Origin: an uncultured Lachnospiraceae bacterium
GTDB taxonomy: Bacteria; Bacillota; Clostridia; Lachnospirales; Lachnospiraceae
Direction of reading: 5' to 3'
Assembly (NCBI GenBank): GCA_947631955.1
Contig: CANRNJ010000003.1
Location: 157,319-221,318, forward strand
DNA length: 64,000 bases
A model generated the notes under the pieces. That model saw only the letters and a program-made list of their open reading frames with translations. It was not told where the DNA came from and made no database searches. Both the position numbers and the translations under genes were made by a program. Shown piece after piece: positions 39,581 to 47,745 of this stretch. How positions within the stretch are numbered: position 1 is the first letter of the stretch; each line of letters opens with the position of its first letter.

Positions 39581-42500
39581 TTATGTGGTTTTCACTTTAG
39601 CATCCTTATCCTTCTTGATAAACAGGATCACAGATAAACATGCAAGACCGATCGACAAGAACCACTTCGGATGGATCGGATCGCCGGTCTTCGGCGTCGC
39701 ATCCAGCATACCTTCCGTCAGATTACCCGTATCGACATAGATCGTATACGGTGAGAAGTGGGATGCCGTAAAGCGGATACAAGGCACGCCGTTGATCGTT
39801 GTAAAGTTCTCGTTTAAGTTCTCCAGCTGATTGCCATTGACCACCGCGCCCGCCATGTTATTGCCGCCGTATGCGACGAGCGCATCCGGTATCGGCAGCG
39901 TGATGTCAACGGTAATTCCCGAAGTATCCGTCAGCTTCACCGTTCCGGTGGAATCATACAGACTGATATCCATCGCATAGTACAGGATGTTGTCCAGACT
40001 GCCGTATTTGTTGGTCAACGCCGCCTGAACCGCCGCGGTCGCCTCGTCGGTCTCCGTGATCTTGATCACAAAGTTATCCGTCGAGCCGTTTACATTGGCC
40101 GAAGCGAGATCCTTATTTGAAATACCCGGTTTCGTGATATCCACGCGGGTGCTGCCGCCGTTATCTGCGGTGCTGACCGGAGTTGCCGCAGTATTTGCGG
40201 CCGCCGAAGCCGTCGTGTACTCCGCTGTGATCGTCACGTCGTTTGCCGGCATCTTAAAGGTCGTCGGCGTCGTGCTGACGCTTGCCAGCGTTACACCCTG
40301 CGACGTCGTCACCCATTTGCTGAATACGGAGCCTGCGGCCGGGGTATTCGCCGTGATCAGGACCGTTGCGCCCGCCGCATAGCTGCCGCTGCCGCTGCCG
40401 CCGTTGACGGTCACGACATACAGGCCGGACGCCGTTGCCGGTGTGGAACCGTTTGAACTTGAAACGGCCGTGCCGCTGCTTGTATTACTCGTATCGCTTG
40501 TGTTGTTCGCATTGCTCGTATTACTCGTATTGCTCGTCGAAGCCGGATTGCTCGTCGTATTCGTCGAAGCGGTCGAATTATTGGACGAACTGTTGGGCGT
40601 GTTCGACGTACTGTCGCCCGACAGATGTGTCGTGTCGTTCGACGACGATCCGCCGCTGGTCGCGGCTGCCTTATACTTCATGATGATCGTCTTGACAGAC
40701 TGCACATTGGTAAAGGTATCGCTGAATCCGTCCGGTTCATAACCGGCATGTTCCGGATGAGCCGGAGCCACCGCATCGCTGCCCGGATCGACATACTGCG
40801 TAGGGCCTACCTGCTTGCCGTCGACCCCGTCATAGAACTCGACCGGATATTTCCCGTTGATCGTCCCGTTCGTCGAATATCCCTGCGCATAGAAGAAACT
40901 GTCTTCATGGATCGGCTGCGCAAGATCCACATTGTTGGAGCCTACCCATCTCTCGAAGGTCCATCCGGACAGTGTCGGATTCTCCGGTACGACCGCATAG
41001 GCGCCGTCCTCCACATATTGAGGATTATCCAGCGGATTGCCCATCTGATCCTTCAGATCGCCTATCAGGGCATAATTCGCATCATAGAAAGATACCTGCC
41101 ACAGGGAACCCAGCGGATGGGTGTCGTCATACTGCAGCTTATATTCACGGCCGTACTGTTCGATATAACGGGATACCGCCGAATCCTCATAGGCTCTTAT
41201 CATGGTAGTGGCTCTCTTGTCACTGTCAAAAGCGCCGGCGGAGATCTGTACTTCATTGCCGTAAATCGTAAGTCCCGTCAGATTATCATCTCCGTTGAAC
41301 GCCCCACGCTCTATTTTGGTGGCCGACATAGGGAGAACCACCGTCTGCAGAAGATCGCAGTTCTTGAAGCAGTCTTCCGGGATCGTCTTAAGTCCCAAAA
41401 CATCGCGTCTTCCGAAATTCACCTCCGTAATGTAATCACAGTCCTCGAAAGCGCCCGGCCGGATGCTCGTGATATTGGCCAGATTCGGATCGGACGCCGT
41501 CGTAACGACCGCCGGTCCTACCAGATTGCCTCTTGCCGCCAGACACTCTTCCACCGTATAAGAACCGTCCTCGTTCTTGGAATAGATGATCCCGTTGACT
41601 GTCGTGTAATATTCGTTGTCCCCCACCGTAGTCATGGAGTAACAGCCTCTAAACGGCGCTTTGCCGATATCCGCGCAGGCATCGCCCAATATCACATATC
41701 CCAGATTCTCACAGCTGTCGAACGCATAATCGGGCAGATACTTCACGCTGTGCATGGTCACGGACGTGATCAGGTCGTTGCCCCTCTCGCGATTCTCTTT
41801 GGATGCGCCGCTGTCCTGATAATCGTCAAAGTACCCGCTGAACAGGCCCGGAACGCTTTGTATGCCGTCTTCGTCGGCAGGCTTCACGTTTTCATACATG
41901 AAACGGCTGTCGGTATCCCAACCGCCCAGTCCATTCAGATAAGTATTATAGTTTCCGATGTTGCTGTACCGTGTCGTATTCTCTTCTCCGTCCGCCGTCA
42001 GATCATGCCGGTAGCCGTACACATCGATGGACTCCACTCCAGCGGGGATATCGATGTTCTTTGAATAATATACGATATCTCTCTCTTCCGGCGTCGCCGC
42101 TCTGTACGGATCGTTGGCATCCACGATCACAGCCACATCATATTTGTTCCTTTCGTAATAAGGATCCGGATAATCCGCCGCGTACGCGGTGATCGGCTCA
42201 AACAGCCATCCGGCCAGCGACCTCTGCTCCGAAGCGGCCGCCGCGAAAGTTCCCGGATCTCTCCAGTCCAATGCCCCCGTATCGTCATTAAGCCAACGCT
42301 GCAGCTTGGCAGAATCCTGACAGAATGTCACAAACTTCGGACTGATCCACGGGCCGTAAAACTCGGAAGAATACAGCGCGTTCAAAGCGGTCGAATCCTC
42401 ACCGGCTTCGTTCCATCCTCTCATAAACTCCCTGCGGAATCCGTCATACTCCGTTCCCGCATAGCGCCTGTACCACTCGTCCGCTTTCATGTCCTCATAA

Positions 42501-45016
42501 GTGTTGATAGGATCGAGTTCTTTGTCGACAGCGCTATTTGCTTCCCTGACTGCACTCTTATACTTGTCATTCAGGAGCGAGCTGATCTCGCCGTACTTCG
42601 GATAATCCAACAGCGTGACCATATCCGTGATGGGATTGTACATGACTGTCAGGTAGGTGGGGGACAAACTCTTATAGCATACTCTGATTCCGTCCTGATC
42701 TTTTATGATATTGTCCGGATCCATCGCCCAGTCAAAAGGCGCGTATCCCTCTACGATATCCCCATGGAACGTAAGTTTGGAACTGCCGGTCTTAAAGGCG
42801 TCGGTTCCGACCGTAAACGCTTCATAGCCCGCCGACGGAGTGTTGAACGTCACATCCTCAAGAGCGGTGCAGTCCTTGAAGGCATTTGCCCCGATCGCAG
42901 TCACGGAATTACCGATATATACTTCCTTCAGGTTTTCCCAGCCTGTGCAGACGCCGTCGTTTAGGAGCGTGAGTTTGGAGTTGTCGCGAATGGTCAGCGA
43001 TGAAATCTTCTGATTCAACTCGTCGTCGCTGAAACAATCCGACGCGATCCCCGTCACATAAGTATCGCCGACTTTATCCGGGATCTCCAGATCAACGAGT
43101 CCATCGATCGAAGCATCAGGATTCTTCGTACAGGAAGTCAAAACGCCCGCGTCGTCGATACACATCAGATAATCGCCGTCGCTCACTTCGTAGAAGTGCT
43201 GATCGCCCCGGTCATACCGATAAGGTATAGGCTTCAATAGGGCGTTTTTGGCCTTCCATGTGCTTCGGCGGGGTTCAGCGGGATTTCTTAAGACATCCAG
43301 TTCCGGCCCCCATACATAGAAATCCGGATTTGTGACTGTTGCAAACAGACCATCATCGAACTTTGCCCGCCCGCTGGACTCCGGGAAATGTACGCATTGC
43401 AGGTTAAAGCAGTTATAGAACGTATTTTCCGGCACGGTAGCTATTGTATTACTGCCGTAGGAGGAAGGCATGGTCACGTTCAGCAGATTGGACCGCCCTG
43501 CCAGTATACAGTCTTTAAACTCGCTGATCGCACCCGGAAAGACGAATTCCGTCAATCCGCCGGTTATAACATTGTCCGCCGCAAACGCGCCTTCTCCGAT
43601 CTTCGTGATACCCACGGTGACCTCCGCAGAATCGCCGCGCTTGAAATTCACGCTGTTCAGGCCGAGCGCGTTAAAAAATGCATAGGCGCCGATATGGACA
43701 TCGGATCCCGTTATGCCGGAGAAATCCACCGTCCGGAGGGATGTGCAGTTGGCAAACGCACCCACTCCGATCATTTGAACTGTAGACGGAAACGTCACGC
43801 TTGTGATGCCTGAGCCGTAGAAACATTCGTTGCCGATCTCGGTAGTGCCCGCCCCGATCGTAACCGAGGTCAGGTCGCTGCAGTTCTTAAACGCCATATC
43901 GCAGACATTCTCAACGTTGTTGAACGTGATCTCTTTCAGGAAAGACCCTTCAAAAGCGCTCGTGCCGATGTATTTGATCTCCGGCGGAACGGTCAGATAG
44001 TACACGTTCCGGATATCTTTGAACGCCCCATTGCCGATGCCGATGATGCTCGCGTCCGTAGTATAGACAAAGCCCTGATCGTCAAACCTCAGCGTATTTG
44101 ACGGGGAACCCCCTTCCATCTTCTGCGGGATATATACATAAGTATTGATACCGCCCGCACCCGGATGCTCCGAGTCAATGACGGTTGCAAGCTTGCAGCC
44201 CTTATATTTTCCGTTCTCTGCATTTTCACAGTAGTATTCGCAGCGCTGATCGGTCGTCAGATCCGATATCTTCTTGCTGAAACTGGGTTCCACCGGTTTG
44301 GTTGCCTCGACCTCCGGATCTACCGGCTCAGGATGCTGCTCGTTCCAACTTGCCAATTCCGCCTCATAAGCAGCCTTATTGGCGGCATAACCGCTGGCAT
44401 AAGCCTCGTACTCACTCTTAAAATATTTATCGAAAAACGCTTTGTCGATATCCTGTATCCGAACCGGATCCTTGCAGGAATATGTAAAGGAATCCGAACG
44501 GTTGCCCACGCTGTCATGTTGTTCTTCGTCAAAAAATTTATCAAAATTCTCTGCGGTAACTTTCACATAGTCGCAGGTGACATTGGGTTTCAACTCGACC
44601 CTGTCCTGTTGATATGTACTGTTATATTCCTTAATGATCCCTCTGCTTCCCTGACCCGAAATAGTTGTCATATAGAATTTAAACTGCCAATCCATCTGGT
44701 ACAGACCGTCCGACAGGAGTTTGATCGTATACGCCGTGGTCAGATCATCAGTGCTTGAATGATCTAAGATATCGTTATTTTTCACCGAAAAATCTTCCTC
44801 GTCACCGTCAATGGATTCAATATCCGCAGGATAACCATACGGCACATTCTCCGGCAAAGAAAGCGGCATCCACCCACGCTCCTGTGCCGCCTCGTTCTCC
44901 GGTACCGGCACCGCCGCCACACCAATCGCCGTAATCATCAGAACAGCAGCCAGACTTCGTCTGACGCTTCTCTTCAACTTCCTTCTCGATTTCTTAACCG
45001 GTGCTTTTTTAGCCAT
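39581..45016 (-). CDS. Giant BspA-type LRR surface protein (1811 aa) with repeat/linker domains and sorting-like tail
   Basis: LRR_5 units, a Listeria-Bacteroides-type WTFERWVG segment, Ser/Thr/Asn linker, TPKTGDPIHPKWFLSIGLACLSVILFIKKDKDAKVKTT. Confidence 0.88.
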   Translation of the reverse strand: MAKKAPVKKSRRKLKRSVRRSLAAVLMITAIGVAAVPVPENEAAQERGWMPLSLPENVPYGYPADIESIDGDEEDFSVKNNDILDHSSTDDLTTAYTIKLLSDGLYQMDWQFKFYMTTISGQGSRGIIKEYNSTYQQDRVELKPNVTCDYVKVTAENFDKFFDEEQHDSVGNRSDSFTYSCKDPVRIQDIDKAFFDKYFKSEYEAYASGYAANKAAYEAELASWNEQHPEPVDPEVEATKPVEPSFSKKISDLTTDQRCEYYCENAENGKYKGCKLATVIDSEHPGAGGINTYVYIPQKMEGGSPSNTLRFDDQGFVYTTDASIIGIGNGAFKDIRNVYYLTVPPEIKYIGTSAFEGSFLKEITFNNVENVCDMAFKNCSDLTSVTIGAGTTEIGNECFYGSGITSVTFPSTVQMIGVGAFANCTSLRTVDFSGITGSDVHIGAYAFFNALGLNSVNFKRGDSAEVTVGITKIGEGAFAADNVITGGLTEFVFPGAISEFKDCILAGRSNLLNVTMPSSYGSNTIATVPENTFYNCFNLQCVHFPESSGRAKFDDGLFATVTNPDFYVWGPELDVLRNPAEPRRSTWKAKNALLKPIPYRYDRGDQHFYEVSDGDYLMCIDDAGVLTSCTKNPDASIDGLVDLEIPDKVGDTYVTGIASDCFSDDELNQKISSLTIRDNSKLTLLNDGVCTGWENLKEVYIGNSVTAIGANAFKDCTALEDVTFNTPSAGYEAFTVGTDAFKTGSSKLTFHGDIVEGYAPFDWAMDPDNIIKDQDGIRVCYKSLSPTYLTVMYNPITDMVTLLDYPKYGEISSLLNDKYKSAVREANSAVDKELDPINTYEDMKADEWYRRYAGTEYDGFRREFMRGWNEAGEDSTALNALYSSEFYGPWISPKFVTFCQDSAKLQRWLNDDTGALDWRDPGTFAAAASEQRSLAGWLFEPITAYAADYPDPYYERNKYDVAVIVDANDPYRAATPEERDIVYYSKNIDIPAGVESIDVYGYRHDLTADGEENTTRYSNIGNYNTYLNGLGGWDTDSRFMYENVKPADEDGIQSVPGLFSGYFDDYQDSGASKENRERGNDLITSVTMHSVKYLPDYAFDSCENLGYVILGDACADIGKAPFRGCYSMTTVGDNEYYTTVNGIIYSKNEDGSYTVEECLAARGNLVGPAVVTTASDPNLANITSIRPGAFEDCDYITEVNFGRRDVLGLKTIPEDCFKNCDLLQTVVLPMSATKIERGAFNGDDNLTGLTIYGNEVQISAGAFDSDKRATTMIRAYEDSAVSRYIEQYGREYKLQYDDTHPLGSLWQVSFYDANYALIGDLKDQMGNPLDNPQYVEDGAYAVVPENPTLSGWTFERWVGSNNVDLAQPIHEDSFFYAQGYSTNGTINGKYPVEFYDGVDGKQVGPTQYVDPGSDAVAPAHPEHAGYEPDGFSDTFTNVQSVKTIIMKYKAAATSGGSSSNDTTHLSGDSTSNTPNSSSNNSTASTNTTSNPASTSNTSNTSNANNTSDTSNTSSGTAVSSSNGSTPATASGLYVVTVNGGSGSGSYAAGATVLITANTPAAGSVFSKWVTTSQGVTLASVSTTPTTFKMPANDVTITAEYTTASAAANTAATPVSTADNGGSTRVDITKPGISNKDLASANVNGSTDNFVIKITETDEATAAVQAALTNKYGSLDNILYYAMDISLYDSTGTVKLTDTSGITVDITLPIPDALVAYGGNNMAGAVVNGNQLENLNENFTTINGVPCIRFTASHFSPYTIYVDTGNLTEGMLDATPKTGDPIHPKWFLSIGLACLSVILFIKKDKDAKVKTT
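40450..40665. repeat. Low-complexity Ser/Thr/Asn linker DNA within the giant LRR gene
   Basis: Encodes NSSSNNSTASTNTTSNPASTSNTSNTSNANNTSDTSNTSSG; recurring RTATTRCTCGT units. Confidence 0.8.
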
Positions 45017-45036
45017 TGCTCTTCTCCTTCACGCCT

Positions 45037-46275
45037 TTACTGAATCCTTTTTGCCACTACCACGAACCGTCCGTCTTCCTCTGAGTTGTCGCAGGTAGAA
45101 AGGGTGAGCAGTTCGTCCCCGTACACCGCCGTAACGCCGGTATCATACAAGGAAAGCGCCGCCATCTCCTGCATATTGGACTCAAATTCTTTCTCAGACG
45201 AGGCGTCTAAAAATTGGTAGTATTTGAATACGATCTCGTCCTCATTGTAGATCTTTGAACGAAAAACGTACATGACTTCATAGGTTCCCTTTTCATATAT
45301 GGTATCAAACCGGATCGTGGAATGTTCCTTCCCGTAATCCTCGCTGCTGTACTTGTTCAGGTTGCCGAACATCTTGCCTGATTTCATATGATGCCCGTAT
45401 ATGATCAGATTCGTGTTCCTGTGTACCACATCGCAGTCTTTATCCAGAAAAAGGCTGCCGTTTTTGTCATATTCCTGATTGTAGTTATGGTCCAGATAAT
45501 ATTCGTTGTTGACCGTCTGCATCACGGGGTAATCAATATCTGTATCGTCAATTTTGAGCCAGCCGATTAGGCTTTTGTTCTTGTTGTAAAGCGTCTGATA
45601 CTCTTCCAGCACCTTCAGCTCAACGTCGTCGTCTTCGGTATAATGGATCGTCACCCCTGACGTCCGCGCCGCCAGCGCCCGATTTCCTTTCAGTCCTGCA
45701 AGGGATCGGTACGCCGCGTCGGTCCTTCCCGCAAAATAATAATATACTCCGAAATAGGCAAAGCAGCCCGCCGCCACCACCGCGCACAGGGCGATCATGA
45801 GCCTGCGGCGCATTTCCCGTTTCTTTAACTCCTGCAGAATGACTTTCTGCATGTTTTTATCGTAACCGTTTAACGAGATATCGGCATTTTTTTGTTTTTT
45901 CCGGCCTTTTCCGGCGTCCGCCGTCTTAACGGAGATCCCGGCATCCGCCGTACTGCGGGCAGCTCCGGCGTCTTTGGCGGTATTCCCCGCCTTCTTTTTG
46001 GCTTTTCTGCCCGTCGGCAGCCTGCTGTCCTTATTGTATCCCCTGCGCTTATATTCCTGCGACAGTTCGTAGATCTCGTCGTCAAAATCGTTTCCTACGA
46101 TCGTTTCAAAGCGGTACCGTCCGGCCTGCATCTGATCGTACAGCGTAATGACCTCGCCCGGCTGCTCCATATGGACATGCCTTCTGATCTCTTCTATTTT
46201 GGCCTGATCCCGCAGCGCTGCCTTATAATCCGCTTCTGTCCGAAATCTTCTTCCGGCGACTTCAAACCCCTCCAT
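45037..46275 (-). CDS. srtB: Class B sortase with long cytoplasmic N-terminal extension
   Basis: IIYGHHMKSGKMFGNLNKY and TLSTCDNSEEDGRFVVVAKRI active-site motifs; TM at RRRLMIALCAVVAAGCFAYFGVYYYF preceded by about 165 aa. Confidence 0.92.
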   Translation of the reverse strand: MEGFEVAGRRFRTEADYKAALRDQAKIEEIRRHVHMEQPGEVITLYDQMQAGRYRFETIVGNDFDDEIYELSQEYKRRGYNKDSRLPTGRKAKKKAGNTAKDAGAARSTADAGISVKTADAGKGRKKQKNADISLNGYDKNMQKVILQELKKREMRRRLMIALCAVVAAGCFAYFGVYYYFAGRTDAAYRSLAGLKGNRALAARTSGVTIHYTEDDDVELKVLEEYQTLYNKNKSLIGWLKIDDTDIDYPVMQTVNNEYYLDHNYNQEYDKNGSLFLDKDCDVVHRNTNLIIYGHHMKSGKMFGNLNKYSSEDYGKEHSTIRFDTIYEKGTYEVMYVFRSKIYNEDEIVFKYYQFLDASSEKEFESNMQEMAALSLYDTGVTAVYGDELLTLSTCDNSEEDGRFVVVAKRIQ

Positions 46276-46456: not shown

Positions 46457-46483
46457 ACACTTTCTGCGCTGCGCCATAAGATA
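46457..46483 (+). promoter_or_regulatory. Candidate sigmaK-type promoter upstream of the Cys-rich gene
   Basis: AC (46457-46458), 16-nt spacer, CATAAGATA (46475-46483), matching AC-N16/17-CATANNNTA. Confidence 0.45.
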
Positions 46484-46513
46484 AACCATAAATAACATTT
46501 GGAGGCTATGGAA

Positions 46514-46750
46514 ATGAGTGATTTATCGGCAACACAATGCGGATGCAGCAACAATAACAACGGCGGATTCTTCGGCGGCGGATGCAGTTCCATCATCTGG
46601 CTGCTTCTGCTGTTATCCGCCTGCGGCGGCGACAATGACGGATGCGGATGCGGCGGCAGCAACGGCTTTGGCCTGTTCAACAACAACGGCAGCAGCTGCT
46701 GTAATACATTGATCTGGTTATTGATCCTTTCAAGCTGCTGCGGCAACTAA
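46514..46750 (+). CDS. Small Cys/Gly/Asn-rich protein with an internal two-fold repeat
   Basis: GGAGG RBS at 46501-46505 eight nt upstream; MSDLSATQCGCSNNNNGGFFGGGCSSIIWLLLLLSACGG / CGCGGSNGFGLFNNNGSSCCNTLIWLLILSSCCGN. Confidence 0.8.
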   Translation: MSDLSATQCGCSNNNNGGFFGGGCSSIIWLLLLLSACGGDNDGCGCGGSNGFGLFNNNGSSCCNTLIWLLILSSCCGN

Positions 46751-46793: not shown

Positions 46794-46832
46794 GAGAAAA
46801 TAGGCTCTGCTCCTTAAGAGCCTATTTTTCTC
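46794..46832 (+). terminator. Strong intrinsic terminator after the Cys-rich gene
   Basis: GAGAAAATAGGCTC - loop - GAGCCTATTTTTCTC. Confidence 0.88.
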
Positions 46833-46885: not shown

Positions 46886-47455
46886 ATGGCAGCAAAAAAC
46901 GAGGAAGCAGAAAACGTTATGGCATTCGATGCCTTGTACACGACTAATCAGATCCAAAAGATCAAGGTTCTTCTCCCCTACATAGAACCTGCCATGCAAA
47001 AGCATCTGGCGGTCTATATTAAATATATGGAGCTGCAATACACATTGAAATATGTCCGAAGACATCCTCTTCAGATACACGGATGCAGTCTTTCTTCCGG
47101 CAATGGCGAAAAACCCGATCTGTGCGCGCTGTGCCGCCAGCTGGCTCTCTACTCTTCACCGGAAGAGATCCGGCAGCTGGAACAGCTGCAGAACATGCTG
47201 CAGACCATGGAAACGATGCAGGAAATGTCACAGGCGATGTCCGTCCTGAACGAGATCTTTCCGGAAATGTCTGCCGCTCCGCCTTTCGGAAGCGGCTCTG
47301 TATCCTCCGATGCGGATGAAACAGAGTCCGCGCAGACGGGCAGCTTTTCCGCACTGGACATGATGATGAACATGCTGACGCCTGAACAGAAAGCGATGTA
47401 TGAGATGTTTCAACAGCAAAATTCAGATTCAGATAAGGAGAATACCGGATCATGA
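46886..47455 (+). CDS. Hypothetical protein (189 aa), Met/Gln-rich helical C-terminus
   Basis: ORF with coding-like composition; TGA overlaps the ATG of the next gene (ATGA). Confidence 0.7.
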   Translation: MAAKNEEAENVMAFDALYTTNQIQKIKVLLPYIEPAMQKHLAVYIKYMELQYTLKYVRRHPLQIHGCSLSSGNGEKPDLCALCRQLALYSSPEEIRQLEQLQNMLQTMETMQEMSQAMSVLNEIFPEMSAAPPFGSGSVSSDADETESAQTGSFSALDMMMNMLTPEQKAMYEMFQQQNSDSDKENTGS

Positions 47456-47745
47456 CAGGAAACTGGATGGAAGACCCTGCCGTAGCCCATATCGACAGGA
47501 ACAAACTGGATTTTCTACAGGCGCTCTTCTACGAGAGCCGCTCTCTCACCAAAGAGCAGATGCTGCCCTTCTTTCTGGCCGCCGCCAAAAGGAGCCGGGA
47601 CAGCCACATTTCTTTCAGCCGGGAAGAGATCGAAACGATCACGTCCGCGATACGCAGATATTCCTCCCCGGAGGAGGCGGAGAAGATCGACCGGTTCATG
47701 AAGCTGCGCCAGACGCAGCCCCCTAAGTCCCCGCCCATCCGGTAA
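47452..47745 (+). CDS. Hypothetical protein (97 aa)
   Basis: ATGA overlap with upstream ORF; shares a YSSPEE(I/A) motif with it. Confidence 0.7.
   Translation: MTGNWMEDPAVAHIDRNKLDFLQALFYESRSLTKEQMLPFFLAAAKRSRDSHISFSREEIETITSAIRRYSSPEEAEKIDRFMKLRQTQPPKSPPIR

Follow-up and report, generated by a model that had tools for sequence, protein, structure and literature searches.

A two-unit, cysteine-rich micro-protein that co-occurs with sporulation in Lachnospiraceae

What is the role of a tiny, cysteine-rich protein that looks like no known enzyme? The question is raised by an open reading frame at positions 46514–46750 (forward strand) of a 64,000-nucleotide stretch of DNA from an uncultured Lachnospiraceae bacterium, hereafter called the window. 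The frame encodes a 78-residue product (MSDLSATQCGCSNNNNGGFFGGGCSSIIWLLLLLSACGGDNDGCGCGGSNGFGLFNNNGSSCCNTLIWLLILSSCCGN). The original prediction described it as a frame with a good ribosome-binding site, 10 cysteines, two near-duplicate units and no apparent enzyme or known binding fold, and proposed a self-assembling, disulfide-crosslinked structural peptide of the spore coat, exosporium or surface.

The mini-gene, as we call it, is a real gene under purifying selection. It is preceded by a GGAGG ribosome-binding site (46501–46505, forward strand) that is kept in all members of the genus, and it occurs only once in its genome. Among the 59 further congeneric species searched, 55 have a match, 53 of these at E ≤ 1e-9 and over most of the length of the protein; the four species lacking a match are all 66–83% complete, and the copies in two genomes (G028 and G029) are broken by runs of N. 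The start of the protein, MSDL[S/T]AT[H/Q/N]CGC, is nearly invariant within the genus, and 131 of 134 relatives begin with MSDL; the Asn/Gly linkers differ in length between genus members. The median pairwise dN/dS is 0.21 (539 pairs). It is these genus-wide matches, the near-invariant start and the low dN/dS that identify a selected gene, and the predicted 78-residue frame and its ribosome-binding site are borne out.

The composition of the mini-protein is extreme. The window protein contains neither lysine nor arginine, and lysine accounts for just 3 of the 10588 residues of the 134 relatives. Translation confirms the 10 cysteines; across the genus cysteine makes up 14.7% of residues, and glycine, asparagine and cysteine together about 48%. 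No Pfam or NCBIfam family matches the protein at E ≤ 10.

The protein is built from two related units, each having a Gly/Asn/Cys head and an aliphatic, Trp-containing stretch. Unit 1 (GFFGGGCSSIIWLLLLLSACGG, about residues 18–39; 46565–46630, forward strand) and unit 2 (NGFGLFNNNGSSCCNTLIWLLILSSCCGN, about residues 50–78; 46661–46747, forward strand) are recognized by a single-unit HMM over residues 10–47 (8.8 bits) and 56–78 (5.0 bits), respectively. Only one-unit proteins from Clostridia outside Lachnospiraceae went into this HMM. At a cut-off of at least 4 bits per unit, 64 of the 134 Lachnospiraceae relatives scored as two-unit proteins, compared with 0 of 670 composition-matched shuffles. 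The predicted duplication is therefore genuine, although “near-duplicate” was generous because the units are divergent. Both the reading frame and its repeat, on whose conservation in relatives the original prediction had staked itself, are conserved.

Class-wide searches of Clostridia, using a two-unit profile and then a unit profile, revealed one-unit homologues of 31–45 residues in other families (for example, MGCNNGLFGGFGNNSCLWIILIIILISCCCND). Often two such genes lie side by side, preceded by a single sigma-K-like promoter (CACC..CATAATATA). Unit-profile matches are present in 66 of 220 Clostridia genomes that encode SpoIVA and in 5 of 73 that do not (p = 2.9e-5). The most economical reading is that the Lachnospiraceae mini-protein is a fused tandem pair of one-unit genes, and its sequence looks like one. 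The opposite history, in which a two-unit gene was split into one-unit genes, is possible.

Is the mini-gene tied to sporulation? We searched 250 Lachnospiraceae genomes representing 249 genera (at least 90% complete) with a mini-protein profile built from 22 diverse members. The profile matched 161 genomes and SpoIVA was found in 166, with 159 genomes having both, 2 the mini-protein only, 7 SpoIVA only and 82 neither (Fisher 8.2e-55, phi 0.92, uncorrected for phylogeny). A relaxed search, run on the SpoIVA-positive misses alone, recovered a divergent copy in four of the seven SpoIVA-only genomes. These copies start with MSD or MSE (for example, MSDLTATNCGG... and MSELNATNCGC...) and have a ribosome-binding site and a CATA-type −10 element; three of the four lie within about 3.5 kb of gene A (described below) on the same contig. 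With these included, the mini-protein is present in 163 of 166 SpoIVA-positive and 2 of 84 SpoIVA-negative genomes. The two exceptions are G173 and G271, the latter also having gene A; their lack of a SpoIVA match may be due to assembly gaps. The genome from which the window derives encodes SpoIVA. Sporulation has been lost in multiple distinct Lachnospiraceae clades (PMC8340488), so that a single-loss artefact is unlikely to account for the pattern. Among Lachnospiraceae, the mini-gene is restricted to spore-formers.

The region upstream of the mini-gene points the same way. Within the genus it is an almost unchanging block, ..AC-N16-CATAAGATAAACCATAAAC..GGAGG. In the window, a putative sigma-K-type promoter has the −35 element AC (46457–46458, forward strand) 16 nucleotides before a −10 element, CATAAGATA (46475–46483, forward strand), that is near-invariant in the genus. 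Across 111 distinct upstream regions from the family, the spacing between AC and CATA peaks at 16 nucleotides, with 17 the next most frequent. The pattern AC-N13..17-CATANNAT[AG] is present in 103 of the 111, which are not independent because many of these sequences are related; dinucleotide shuffles averaged 1.2 and never exceeded 3, and the same pattern occurs in 4 of 73 regions upstream of gene A. The motif persists in divergent mini-gene members and in one-unit relatives from other families. In C. difficile, a sigma-K promoter combines AC with CATATAAT, whereas a sigma-E promoter reads ATA-N16-CATATATA (PMC3789822). The AC at −35 matches the former rather than the latter, and the mini-gene thus appears to have a conserved mother-cell promoter of the sigma-E/K type, of the sigma-K kind. 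The original link to the spore is strongly supported by this conserved promoter and by the co-occurrence with SpoIVA.

An intact homologue of sigma-K (280.7 bits, slightly short of the 298.65 set as curated cut-off) is present in the genome, along with another sigma factor consistent with sigma-E. A scan of the whole genome for the promoter pattern gave 43 matches compared with 41 in a reversed control. Without such enrichment the pattern alone defines no regulon; what carries weight is how well it is conserved. In the same genome this promoter type stands ahead of the reading frame of a CotS-family coat gene, an anecdotal case given the lack of enrichment. Of 13 stretches around the better matches it was the only one in which the promoter directly precedes a clear coat annotation, a choice made by eye. 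A sigma-70 promoter scan was at chance level. In divergent relatives (for example, L171, L183 and L200) the promoter spacer often contains a conserved GACA-GCC-like element; this resembles a SpoIIID site, and may add SpoIIID control.

The mini-gene also keeps consistent company. In the window and in most of 80 relatives the order is a class B sortase gene (divergent and variable), the mini-gene, gene A, gene B and a convergent leuS. A terminator-like hairpin (46796–46829, forward strand; −17.4 kcal/mol by folding, absent from the list of a consensus terminator scan) follows the mini-gene, and a hairpin with a T-run is found at this place in 52 of the 80 relatives, so the mini-gene is probably transcribed alone. 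Gene A (46886–47455, forward strand) encodes a 189-residue protein, and gene B (47452–47745, forward strand; 97 residues) starts 4 nucleotides before gene A ends. Neither has a convincing family match in Pfam or NCBIfam. The predicted AlphaFold model of gene A is helical (pLDDT 73.5, pTM 0.37) and had no match in the PDB (best E 4.5). Gene A is present in 155 of the 250 genomes searched above, and when the two sets of genomes are compared only one of the 155 (G271) lacks SpoIVA, so gene A too is sporulation-linked. Both within Lachnospiraceae and in other families of the order, genes A and B keep their place next to leuS; they are probably an uncharacterized sporulation gene pair. Near this cluster in other families we noted, by eye, genes for subtilisin-like proteases (L091, 5268–6440; L093, 270–1529) and further small Phe-rich hydrophobic reading frames, which suggests a larger sporulation gene cluster. 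On the other side of the mini-gene, positions 39581–46275 of the window encode a repeat-rich surface protein of 1811 residues, BspA-like by eye and with a C-terminal TPKTGD sorting-like motif, and, adjoining it, the class B sortase (45037–46275).

How does the mini-protein compare with known spore-surface proteins? The small spore proteins YjcZ and SscA (YhzE) of Bacillus (PF09680, TIGR01732) are tiny, with a Gly-rich head and one aliphatic segment. Their layout is resembled by the one-unit Clostridia relatives (31–45 residues), whereas the mini-protein is rich in Cys and Asn and has two units per chain. At E ≤ 10, searches of Pfam and NCBIfam matched neither the mini-protein nor its one-unit relatives to a YjcZ/SscA-type profile; the latter gave only weak, meaningless matches. 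The B. subtilis yjcZ gene is a member of the sigma-K regulon (PMC517825). Cysteine-rich proteins are building material of both the exosporium of C. difficile and the crust of B. subtilis, and CdeC and CdeM are reported to be absent from Lachnospiraceae (PMC6101409). The mini-protein shares high cysteine content with CdeC, CdeM and CdeA, whose setting is the spore surface, but differs in being only 78 residues long and in repeating an aliphatic segment that contains Trp. CotY, CotZ and ExsY of the Bacilli crust and exosporium are described as cysteine-rich, self-assembling, disulfide-stabilized spore-surface proteins (PMC6101409). Unlike these, the mini-protein has no Lys or Arg and repeats an aliphatic segment, and the Pfam spore coat CotZ/ExsY domain did not match it at E ≤ 10. 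The label “chorion class high-cysteine protein”, mentioned in the original prediction for related frames, turned up in the open-access literature searched in a silkworm context only, and no chorion family of Pfam matched the mini-protein. Insect chorion high-cysteine proteins do share low-complexity Gly/Cys repeats with it, but belong to the eukaryotic eggshell.

By analogy of function, the mini-protein would stand closest to small proteins of the sigma-K regulon such as YjcZ and to the cysteine-rich CotY/CotZ, ExsY and CdeC/CdeM. By sequence it falls into none of the described families compared, and we would class it as an undescribed family within a known kind. Searches of the open-access literature returned no paper describing the family and no Lachnospiraceae spore proteome.

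Are disulfide bonds central to this protein? In other families of the order, near genes A and B and leuS, there are reading frames with two Phe-rich aliphatic stretches and few cysteines. These Phe/Gly-rich lookalikes include MSDVSSTSFGFGGSNIIFLFFFLLLFNTGGCGGLFGG..., which has CATATTATA upstream, and MAESKSCFGGNSNILFLFFFLLLFNNGG...; their hydrophobic segments read, for example, IIFLFFFLLLF and MFFILIIILMF. Position, start and layout suggest that they are the same kind of protein as the mini-protein. If so, individual lineages acquired or lost cysteines, and what is essential is the aliphatic unit. This unit rather than disulfide bonding thus appears to be the core of the mini-protein, and disulfides are probably not a universal core of the mechanism. 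The structural part of the first reading is unaffected. The proposed disulfide crosslinking is weakened: it fits the cysteine richness of the genus, but proteins of the same two-unit layout in other families are cysteine-poor.

Taken together, we consider it probable that the mini-protein is a late, mother-cell-specific structural micro-protein of the spore surface, its localization and mechanism being what we infer. That it is structural and self-assembling is plausible.

The main competing explanation is that the mini-protein is no bulk building material but a small sporulation factor, associated with the outer forespore membrane and guiding coat or cortex assembly there, as SpoVM and SscA are thought to do. 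Each chain has two hydrophobic segments, modelled by AlphaFold as two short helices (H25–37 and H62–76) at low confidence (pLDDT 49), and the lookalikes keep such segments while having few cysteines. The model, which lacks a confident fold, would neither favour nor rule out assembly. However, at about 8–11 residues the strictly hydrophobic runs are rather short to form a transmembrane helix, no positively charged residue is available in the window protein to anchor a topology, and the long Cys/Gly/Asn-rich heads resemble those of structural proteins. We judge a membrane factor unlikely. More broadly, a gene so tied to sporulation could act in assembly or germination rather than as a component of the shell.

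The cysteines themselves suggest a metallothionein-like metal or redox buffer of the spore, with CGC binding zinc or iron. CGC occurs at residues 9–11 and 44–46, there are two CC pairs in addition, and each relative has 7–22 cysteines. Yet cysteine number and position vary widely among relatives, the lookalikes of other families have few, and what varies least is the MSDL start (MSDL..CGC in Lachnospiraceae) together with the aliphatic, Trp-bearing stretch of each unit. We reject this reading as very improbable. A secreted antimicrobial or cannibalism peptide, or a RiPP precursor, made by the mother cell is a shade less credible still, and is likewise rejected. Such a peptide could well be small, Cys-rich, hydrophobic and restricted to spore-formers, but the neighbours (srtB, genes A and B, and leuS) include no modification, transport/export or immunity genes, the protein has no division into leader and core, and it is conserved in some 160 genera under purifying rather than diversifying selection. 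Finally, that a low-complexity frame (about 48% Gly, Asn and Cys in the genus) merely matches others like it by chance is scarcely credible, being contradicted by the fixed start, ribosome-binding site and promoter, the synteny with genes A and B and leuS, the dN/dS of 0.21 and the 0 of 670 shuffles with two units.

How might a structural protein of the spore surface work? RNA polymerase with sigma-K would make the mini-protein in the mother cell late in sporulation, and the lysine-free, nearly uncharged chains would be deposited on the forespore. There the aliphatic Trp stretches (IIWLLLLL and LIWLLIL) would pack against one another, perhaps at the interface with a membrane or the coat, and the Gly/Asn/Cys heads would form a flexible layer hardened by disulfides between CGC and CC motifs. 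Two units would make each chain divalent and able to bridge its neighbours, and this divalence would account for the joining of one-unit genes that stood in tandem in an ancestor. A bolder version, which we think doubtful, is that Clostridia have a spore layer of their own whose main subunit is this peptide or its one-unit relatives: a shell without lysine, comparable to silk or chorion and made of 30-residue aliphatic/Gly-Asn-Cys modules. Tandem one-unit genes would encode it in several lineages and a fused, divalent gene in Lachnospiraceae, and some clades would have added hardening by disulfides.

Lachnospiraceae rank with the most abundant bacteria of the gut, and for gut commensals of this sort spores are a main means of moving from host to host. 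Found once per genome in nearly every spore-forming genus of the family, the mini-gene offers a direct entry to a spore surface whose make-up is hardly described, and is a compact genomic marker of the ability to form spores. Moreover, the module illustrates how one-unit micro-proteins may have turned into a fused two-unit protein.
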